This document shows positions 7,900-24,897 of a stretch of DNA of 54,445 bases, piece by piece. Origin of the DNA: Spirochaetaceae bacterium. Lineage in GTDB: Bacteria; Spirochaetota; Spirochaetia; Treponematales; Treponemataceae. Below the pieces are notes generated by a model. The model was given only the letters and a program-made list of their open reading frames with translations, had not been told where the DNA came from and did not search any database. The stretch's first letter is position 1; each line of letters opens with the position of its first letter. The stretch lies in assembly GCA_017936665.1 (NCBI GenBank), contig JAGBFB010000012.1, positions 1 to 54,445 of the forward strand, given 5' to 3'. The position numbers and the translations under genes were made by a program.

Positions 7900-8039
7900 A
7901 TTCCGAACTTGATTCGGAATCTCTTTGAGTAGATGCTGAACCAAGTTCAGCATGACAGAGTTTTCTCTCATTCTATCTCGGAAATTGACACGCCTGCAAG
8001 TTTTGTGAAACAAAACTTGATTGTAAGCCGAAGGCTTAC
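7900..8039. repeat. Cluster of four short perfect hairpins (REP-like)
   Basis: Four perfect inverted repeats lie in a row: 7900-7920 (8-bp arms, loop CTTGA), 7933-7953 (9-bp arms, loop CAA), 7997-8019 (10-bp arms, loop GAA) and 8023-8039 (7-bp arms, loop GAA). The first shares its CTTGATTC core with the tandem repeat at 11481. The cluster fills the gap after the lipoprotein gene and could act as a transcript end or an mRNA-stabilising element. There is no coding potential here. Confidence 0.7.
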
Positions 8040-8046
8040 TAAAAGT

Positions 8047-8234
8047 CTTGCAAGCGAAGCGCAGCACTAACGAGTTGGGGCAATTTTGGGCGAGAGCCTT
8101 TTTTAATGCAAATTGCTAAATAAACAATATTTCTTTCGTTCTTTTTTCCCACAAATATTTAAAAGTTTACAAAATTCATCTGGCTAGGCTTTTTATACAA
8201 ATAAGTTGTAAATATTTTATAGATGTTTTATACT
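8047..8234 (+). repeat. Dispersed 188-bp intergenic repeat, copy A
   Basis: It matches 23617-23804 along its whole length. Shared blocks are CTTGCAAGCG, AGCGCAGCA, GAGAGCCTTTTTT, TTTCTTTCGTTCTTTTTT, TCTGGCT/CCTGGCT followed by a T-rich run, and AAATAAGTTGTAAATATTTT...GATGTTTTATA. Both copies stop at a -10 box just upstream of a housekeeping gene (ruvC here, trpS there). Confidence 0.8.
8206..8234 (+). promoter_or_regulatory. sigma70 promoter of ruvCAB-queA inside the repeat end
   Basis: TTGTAA at 8206-8211, a 17-base spacer, and TATACT at 8229-8234. The expected transcription start is about 8241, the A of the ruvC ATG, so ruvC may be leaderless. Confidence 0.75.
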
Positions 8235-8240
8235 GACCCT

Positions 8241-8744
8241 ATGCTTATTCTCGGTATTGATCCTGGCCTTGCATCAACTGGTTGGGGTGTAATAGATTCA
8301 GACGGAAATAGATTTCGCCTTATATCTTACGGATGTATAGAAACTGACTCAAAACAAAATCATTCCTTACGATTATTAGAAATCTACAATAAAATATTAG
8401 CTGTCATCAATGAATTTAAGCCAGACCAAGCCTCCATGGAAACTTTATATTTTGCAAAAAATGTTACCAGTGCCTTAGGAGTTTCAGAGGCAAGGGGAGT
8501 TGTCAGTTTGTGTCTTGCTCAAAATGCAATTCCTTTAACAGAATATTCTCCAAACACAATAAAGCAATCCGTTTCTGGAACAGCAACTGCCGATAAAGCC
8601 CTTGTGCAAAAATGTGTAAAAATGCTACTTGGTCTACAAGAAATCCCTAAGCCCGACCACGCTGCTGACGCCATTGCTGCTGCCATCACCCATGTAAATT
8701 CAACAGGACTTACAAGATTAAAATCAAATCTTTCATTGAAATAA
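8241..8744 (+). CDS. ruvC: Holliday junction endonuclease RuvC
   Basis: A 167-residue RNase H-fold resolvase that cuts Holliday junctions together with RuvAB during recombinational repair. The acidic catalytic residues are visible: Asp7 in 'LGIDPGLASTGWG', the Glu in 'METLYF', and the Asp pair in 'KPDHAADAIAAAITH'. The start at 8241 gives the standard N-terminus. The upstream in-frame ATG at 8223 lies within the promoter and is rejected. No Shine-Dalgarno sequence precedes 8241, which fits a leaderless transcript. It heads ruvC-ruvA-ruvB-queA, although ruvA has its own 26-base gap. Confidence 0.95.
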   Translation: MLILGIDPGLASTGWGVIDSDGNRFRLISYGCIETDSKQNHSLRLLEIYNKILAVINEFKPDQASMETLYFAKNVTSALGVSEARGVVSLCLAQNAIPLTEYSPNTIKQSVSGTATADKALVQKCVKMLLGLQEIPKPDHAADAIAAAITHVNSTGLTRLKSNLSLK

Positions 8745-11476: not shown

Positions 11477-11480
11477 GACA

Positions 11481-11601
11481 TAATATGACAAAATAAATAG
11501 TGTCATCCTGAACTTGATTCAGGATCTGAGCTATAATATGACAAAATAAATAGTGTCATCCTGAACTTGATTCAGGATCTGAGCTATAATATGACAAAAT
11601 A
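11481..11601. repeat. 53-bp tandem direct repeat, 2.3 copies
   Basis: Exact units at 11481-11533 and 11534-11586, and a 15-base partial third copy at 11587-11601. Each unit carries TAATATGACA and the palindrome CCTGAA-CTTGA-TTCAGG, related to the hairpin at 7900. Confidence 0.92.
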
Positions 11602-23173: not shown

Positions 23174-23347
23174 CAGAACTTGCTATATTGATAAGTTTTT
23201 AAATCAATTTATATAAAAATGCTCTCAACTGAAATTGCCCCAATCACTGCTAGTTCGTCGCTACGCTCCTCAATGCAGTGTTGTGTCAATTTCAGTCTAC
23301 GCATTTTTTACATAATTTACTTTAATAATTATGTATAGCAAGTTCTG
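23174..23347. repeat. 174-bp nested palindrome
   Basis: Four nested perfect arm pairs: 23174-23187 with 23334-23347 (14 bp), 23215-23222 with 23301-23308 (8 bp), 23228-23237 with 23287-23296 (10 bp), and 23245-23250 with 23275-23280 (6 bp). RNA or single-stranded DNA from here would fold into one long interrupted hairpin. The apex carries a GTAGCG-rich piece related to the 5' part of the dispersed repeat. Confidence 0.8.
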
Positions 23348-23467: not shown

Positions 23468-23557
23468 TCTTGGAATAATTTACAACCTACATATCGTAGA
23501 AAATCCCAGCCAGACAATCATGTAAATTTACATATCGTTGCAAAAAAGAACGAAAAC
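23468..23557 (-). repeat. Dispersed repeat, copy C (inverted, partial)
   Basis: On the minus strand it matches the right half of copies A and B: TCGTTCTTTTTTGC, CTGGCTGGGATTTT, GTTGTAAAT and ATTCCAAGA. The -10 box is not conserved, so this copy is probably silent. With copy B it forms a large inverted repeat in front of trpS. Confidence 0.65.
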
Positions 23558-23616
23558 GAATTGTATATTATCGAATTGTAAAAAAAAGGCGTAACCCAAA
23601 ATCGACATCGTGAAGC

Positions 23617-23804
23617 CTTGCAAGCGTAGCGCAGCACCAGCGAACGAGGGCGATTTTTGGGTGAGAGCCTTTTTTTATGCAAATCAGTCAATAAACAACA
23701 TTTCTTTCGTTCTTTTTTTGCCACATATATTTAAAACTTACAATATTTCCTGGCTGGGATTTTTATGCAAATAAGTTGTAAATATTTTCAAGATGTTTTA
23801 TAAT
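23617..23804 (+). repeat. Dispersed 188-bp intergenic repeat, copy B
   Basis: Homologous end to end with copy A (8047-8234). A further inverted pair, GGC..ACCCAAAATCG (23588-23604) and CGATTTTTGGGT..GCC (about 23651-23669), surrounds its 5' part and could form a stem. Confidence 0.8.
23776..23804 (+). promoter_or_regulatory. sigma70 promoter of trpS inside the repeat end
   Basis: TTGTAA at 23776-23781, a 17-base spacer, and TATAAT at 23799-23804. The expected start is near 23811, giving a ~25-base leader with AGAGGTGA before the trpS ATG. Confidence 0.8.
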
Positions 23805-23835
23805 ATACCTATCATTATTCAGAGGTGAATTTTTT

Positions 23836-24897
23836 ATGTCAGATACTTATCAAGCTGCTGTAGAAACTAGCAAAAAAATAGAAGCAGATTTACAAGTAAA
23901 TCCAAAAAAATATAGAGTACTTACTGGGGATAGACCTACAGGTAGATTACATATTGGGCATTATTTTGGTTCTTTGCAAAATCGTGTTCGCTTATCAAAA
24001 ATGGGTGTTCCTACAAGTATTTTGATTGCAGATTATCAAGTTTTAACTGATCATGATGCTTTTTCTGAAATTTCACAAAACACAAAACAACTTGTAATCG
24101 ATTATCTTGCTGCTGGAATTGAACCTAATGATGATGTTATTATTTATCCTCATAGTTATGTTCCAGAAGCAAATCAACTTATGATTCCTTTTTTAACTTT
24201 GGTTTCAAATGCAGAATTAAATCGTAATCCAACTGTAAAAGAAGAAATTCAAGCTGCTGGACTAAAAAGTGTAAATGCAGGAATGTATACTTATCCTGTA
24301 CATCAAGCAGTTGATATTCTTTATTGCAAAGGAAATGTTGTTCCTGTAGGTAAAGATCAACTTCCTCATCTTGAATTAACAAGATTGATTGCTCGTCGTT
24401 TTAACGAAAAATTTTCGCCAGACAATCCAGTTTTTCCGGAACCACAAGCATTATTAAGCAAAACTCCTCATATTATGGGATTAGATGGAACTCAGAAAAT
24501 GAGTAAAAGTCGTGGAAATGCAATTATGCTTTGTGCTACAGAAGATGAGACTGCAAAACTTATAAAAAAGGCAAAAACTGACGGAGAGCGATTTATCACT
24601 TATGATCCAGAAAATCGTCCTGAAGTTGCAAATCTTCTTATGTTGATTTCTCTTTGTACTGATGAAACTCCAGAAGCAATCGCTGCAAAAATTGGTGATG
24701 GTGGCGGCGGAATGTTAAAAAATATGCTTACTGAAAGTTTGAACGAAAAACTTAGACCTTTACGTGAAGAACGCAAACGCTTAGAAGCTGCTCCTGATTA
24801 TATTAGACAAGTTCTATTAAATGGAGCAGAAAAAGCTAGAGAAATGGCTGTAGAAACTTTAAAAGAAGTTCGCCACGTTATGAACATGGAAATTTAA
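23836..24897 (+). CDS. trpS: Tryptophanyl-tRNA synthetase
   Basis: A 353-residue class I aminoacyl-tRNA synthetase that charges tRNA-Trp. The ATP-binding signatures are plain: 'TGRLHIGHYFGSL' (HIGH) near residue 35 and 'GLDGTQKMSKSRGN' (KMSKS) near residue 220. The tryptophan pocket region 'PVHQAVDILYCKGNVVPVGKDQ' lies between them (first 20 residues cited as landmarks only). Length is normal for bacterial TrpS. AGAGGTG is eight bases before ATG. It is a single-gene unit with its own promoter and terminator. Confidence 0.96.
   Translation: MSDTYQAAVETSKKIEADLQVNPKKYRVLTGDRPTGRLHIGHYFGSLQNRVRLSKMGVPTSILIADYQVLTDHDAFSEISQNTKQLVIDYLAAGIEPNDDVIIYPHSYVPEANQLMIPFLTLVSNAELNRNPTVKEEIQAAGLKSVNAGMYTYPVHQAVDILYCKGNVVPVGKDQLPHLELTRLIARRFNEKFSPDNPVFPEPQALLSKTPHIMGLDGTQKMSKSRGNAIMLCATEDETAKLIKKAKTDGERFITYDPENRPEVANLLMLISLCTDETPEAIAAKIGDGGGGMLKNMLTESLNEKLRPLREERKRLEAAPDYIRQVLLNGAEKAREMAVETLKEVRHVMNMEI

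Follow-up and report, generated by a model that had tools for sequence, protein, structure and literature searches.

The repeats upstream of ruvC and trpS in the 54,445-nt stretch of Spirochaetaceae DNA analysed here (the window) belong to a dispersed family with a covarying structure that is present in several genera. We think it likely that these are non-autonomous, intergenic palindromic elements, specific to the Treponemataceae and akin in habit to REPs, MITEs and Correia elements, and that the promoters at ruvC and trpS are an occasional by-product of position. These elements give the Treponemataceae a family of intergenic repeats, long and structured, which turned up in neither Rfam nor the literature searched, together with a covariance model that can locate its copies.

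The repeat in the window, the genome and related genera

A first-pass annotation of the window had described a dispersed repeat without coding capacity, two copies of which align end to end and finish in TTGTAA-17-TATA(C/A)T ahead of ruvC and trpS. Both stretches do align throughout (8047–8250 against 23617–23820, 204 bp), they are non-coding, and the hexamers lie where they were placed (Table 1). Similarity extends beyond the reported ends (8234 and 23804) to 8250 and 23820, into the first codons of ruvC, and is best in the blocks 8077–8147 (86%) and 8180–8250 (85%); an alternative ruvC ATG at 8223 falls within the repeat. The trpS-side stretch proved to be the right half of an imperfect palindrome of about 330 bp, with its left arm at 23478–23602 and a right arm ending near 23790–23804. 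On the ruvC side the left arm is gone, or other repeats stand in its stead. The hairpin-pair module found here recurs at the same loop position in loci L003, L004, L005, L008, L009 and L017, the L008 and L009 copies being 100% identical over 44 nt and the others near-identical. A third core copy, absent from the earlier annotation, lies on the opposite strand, with the 3' end of a FlgJ-like gene 74 bp away. Elsewhere in the window (11480–11585), a 53-bp unit holding GTCATCCTGAACTTGATTCAGGATC is present in two perfect tandem copies, and related palindromes of the TTCAGCATGACA type occur at about 7900–7960, beside the ruvC copy, and at several other element loci.

Table 1. Features of the two repeat-bearing regions of the window, with the basis for each assignment.
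Feature	Position	Strand	Basis
Hairpin-pair module GTTTTGTGAAACAAAACTTGATTGTAAGCCGAAGGCTTACTAAA	8000–8043	+	Sequence match to other copies
Structured core, ruvC-side copy	8012–8104	+	cmsearch with model R1, 42.6 bits
Stretch in common with the trpS-side copy (reported as 8047–8234)	8047–8250	+	83% identity, E 5e-51
Promoter-like TTGTAA-17-TATACT	8206–8234	+	Promoter scan; -10 ends 6 nt ahead of ruvC ATG
ruvC	8241–8744	+	NCBIfam RuvC; likely start 8241
Structured core, third copy	23213–23311	-	cmsearch, R1 44.3 bits; R2 67.3 bits
trpS-side element, imperfect palindrome	23478–23804	+	Inverted match 73%; arms I17 83% complementary; fold
Structured core, trpS-side copy	23580–23677	+	cmsearch, R1 101.9 bits (copy included in the R1 seed alignment)
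Promoter-like TTGTAA-17-TATAAT	23776–23804	+	Promoter scan; -35 in terminal arm of palindrome
trpS	23836–24897	+	NCBIfam TIGR00233

What is dispersed is a structured core of about 97 nt with long imperfect palindromic arms. Used as a query, 251 bp from the ruvC copy found some 20 further places in the genome, nearly all of the matches covering only the first 55–100 bases that follow 8044 (the CTTGCAAGCG.AGCGCAGCAC region plus the adjoining arm) or the hairpin module before it. A covariance model of nine clean copies found 41 places with an E value of 0.1 or lower, of which the window accounts for three. The genome-wide search that the first-pass annotation had proposed yields about 40 copies of the core in this gut treponeme, whereas the whole 3' half is common only to the two copies originally reported. 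Within our Treponemataceae sample, homologues with different stem sequences occur in three genera (g1, g4 and g9), and g13 gave a single weak match; the counts in these other genomes are lower bounds, since few candidates per genome were scored. Across the phylum sample, model matches were confined to the Treponemataceae. Eight element loci gave no covariance-model match in Rfam 15 at E ≤ 0.1, and a search of the literature on Treponema palindromic repeats found nothing relevant.

The right end of the element is generally nearer a gene than the left end and points at a start codon in some cases and at a stop codon in others; both orientations relative to neighbouring genes occur, with none fixed. 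Gene ends, as opposed to starts, are what many copies face, and many sit no more than tens of bases from a stop codon. Copies in the other genera also lie near gene ends, those at L200 and L219, upstream of a dnaJ-like gene (named by eye), being examples. At L172 the right end overlaps the last codons and stop of a deoC-like gene (also named by eye), reading ICTK-stop from TTTGCACAAAATAA. An IS-like end (GAACTGCACCCAATTTTTTGGACA) interrupts two element copies, L185 and L003.

Fold and internal loop of the core

The core folds into one long hairpin in which an internal loop separates the outer stem from the inner stem and the apical part is variable; longer imperfect inverted arms flank it. In our first alignment, A3 (nine clean copies, MAFFT), which was made without a model, compensatory changes affect 17 of 31 pairs. 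A second alignment, A6 (48 matches from several genera, 46 distinct rows), was fitted to the covariance model and is hence biased towards its structure; 94.2% of its cells are paired, 28 of the 31 pairs show double-sided changes, and its covariation score is 0.638, against 0.160 for shuffles and no more than 0.098 for slid versions. Apical parts and arms vary greatly between copies, and the outer stems are frequently A-rich/T-rich. The internal loop (GC-GTA / GARA-GC) hardly varies: 42 of 48 rows have GTA facing GAGA or GAAA, and the remainder have GGA/GGGA (three), GGA/GTAA (two) or GCA/GAGA (one). The GTA is often followed by G, and GTAA is also found. Integron attC sites, considered on account of the variable apical part, were set aside, as inspection of the aligned copies showed no conserved RYYYAAC/GTTRRRY boxes.

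Template-switch correction of one arm by the other may likewise produce compensatory changes in palindromes, without any selection for folding. Such correction would leave the near-constancy of the unpaired loop unaccounted for. So constant a loop between stems that covary freely points to the element being recognised specifically, so that a binding partner can be sought. G-U cells outnumber A-C cells (42 against 14, cells that are non-independent and come from the model-fitted alignment), an asymmetry between strands which suggests selection on one folded single strand and would also fit a transcribed RNA. The overall G-U share is 3.3%; we discarded a low share as proof of selection at the DNA level, because the difference from RNase P (six of 90 pairs) is too small to separate RNA from DNA.

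Promoter-like sequences at ruvC and trpS

The first-pass annotation read the repeat as a portable expression module that ends precisely in a promoter. We did find a -35-like hexamer in the right end of the element at both ruvC and trpS, but a promoter is not general cargo of the copies: the whole promoter-bearing 3' half occurs in only two of about 40. Taken purely as promoter matches, the hexamer pairs did not exceed the frequency in shuffled sequence (1 observed, 1.8 expected; 5 observed, 2.9 expected). A 3' end of this type (TGTAAATCTTTTTAAGATGTTTTACAAACC in L184) recurs at three further loci (L183, L184, L009) but has no -10 there, L184 and L009 having separate promoter-like hexamers further on. 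In L187 and L193 a terminal TTGCAA is separated by 17 nt from TATAAT or TAAAAT. Among the other copies that precede genes, most are accompanied by different promoters, often outside the repeat.

The comparison with relatives also went against a mobile promoter, as congeners that lack the repeat have promoters of their own at both genes. Two of them carry TATAAT 7 nt ahead of the ruvC ATG; the gap here is 6 nt, so that the ruvC -10 may be ancestral. Given these same spacings, the ruvC mRNA (window 8223–8260) appears to be leaderless or near-leaderless, here as in the two congeners. The trpS upstream regions of G001, G002 and L044, where the repeat is absent by inspection, have TTTACA-17-TAAAAT, TTGTCT-17-TAGAAT and TTGTAA-17-TATAAT, respectively. 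However, their -10 lies 6–7 nt from the ATG, as opposed to about 31 nt here; the promoter at trpS may hence be a new one and could have come with the element.

Origin, mobilisation and known counterparts

We consider it quite improbable that the repeat end is a complete promoter delivered to new genes. Such delivery would account for the identical -35, 17-nt spacer and position in both window copies, with the -35 inside the terminal arm, for the spacing of the terminal TTGCAA from the -10 in L187 and L193, and for a trpS promoter positioned unlike those of relatives. It fits poorly with the rarity of the full promoter end, the three similar ends that lack a -10, the promoters that most gene-upstream copies have elsewhere, the many copies facing gene ends, and the ancestral-looking -10 spacing at ruvC. 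The many copies close to stop codons would be expected of a transcribed structured RNA, or of a bidirectional terminator that punctuates gene ends and was amplified for its usefulness there, a reading also favoured by the strong covariation, the A-rich/T-rich outer stems and the excess of G-U over A-C cells. We nevertheless regard it as unlikely, because the elements lie in both orientations to genes, their apical parts and arms differ greatly, Rfam has no match, a terminator scan at the ruvC-side and trpS-side sites found none, and the G-U share is not clearly unlike that of RNase P.

For the dispersed intergenic element that we favour, copies would have spread as DNA, mobilised in trans by an enzyme that recognises the folded single strand at its GTA/GARA foot. 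In the ruvC and trpS cases the element's right end abuts the control region of the gene, so its TTGTAA could serve as the -35 for a -10 at or just past the boundary. The resulting junction promoter is probably an occasional by-product of position rather than a function conserved in the repeat, and the case shows how a repeat end may become part of a promoter without any mobile promoter. Element ends are degenerate, and the nearest relatives (about 70% identical in RuvC, with different upstream sequence) are too distant for intergenic DNA to be aligned, so that no empty site or target duplication could be demonstrated.

As to the mobilising enzyme, a RAYT/Y1 transposase was considered and rejected: a PF01797 search gave a single Y1_Tnp gene in this genome (G000), read by eye as IS200-like and sitting on a contig without a listed element, and no match in nine of the 14 genomes searched. 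A narrower version of our favoured explanation, and compatible with it, is that the elements are moved by amplified Rpn-family nucleases or putative transposases, as REPs are by RAYTs. Seven element–Rpn pairs lie within 1 kb in G000 (0.93 expected, P 5e-5), the elements being placed downstream in the same orientation or upstream and divergent; homology among Rpn loci continues through the adjoining element, and one pair was found in another genus (G102). Against this, 33 of 40 copies lie away from Rpn genes, seven other genomes together have only one pair, the element-bearing G104 gave just a single weak Rpn match, and contig breaks at repeats inflate the proximity. We give this version little credence at present, and Rpn is an unproven lead, since contig ends bias the proximity and other genomes do not show the association generally. 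The genome has 31 Rpn-family (TIGR01784) matches, many at contig ends, and the window itself starts (32–418) with a C-terminal fragment of this family at 215–409. More ambitiously, the folded strand with its invariant GTA/GARA loop might be the substrate of an enzyme, possibly an Rpn nuclease, which would make the family a Treponemataceae-wide REP-like mobile repeat outside the RAYT family; this we hold to be rather unlikely.

Among known systems, the Rpn-family (TIGR01784, T_den_put_tspse) loci are similar in that several elements adjoin amplified putative transposase genes here, but most elements are distant from such genes and the association is not general. GTAG-tagged REPs of the REP/RAYT system (PMC3733652) resemble our elements as palindromes scattered between genes that have a GTAG/GGAG-like tag where the hairpin has its foot, compensatory stem changes and variable loops, and our elements have GTA (42 of 48) or GGA (five of 48) in the loop. 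In contrast to REPs of 20–40 bp, however, the core measures about 97 nt and the arms reach up to about 330 bp, the tag lies in an internal loop opposite GARA, and there is no linked RAYT; the same REP survey placed Spirochaetes under CGTC repeats (PMC3733652). Terminal inverted repeats, as in MITEs and Correia elements, are present as inverted arms at trpS and in other copies. To the Correia repeat enclosed elements, or NEMIS, of Neisseria the likeness is one of habit, without known sequence relation, and promoters are no general feature of the Treponemataceae copies. The Neisseria elements too are non-autonomous intergenic palindromes whose ends can create outward promoters, and they offer a precedent for promoters at repeat ends (PMC2649163).
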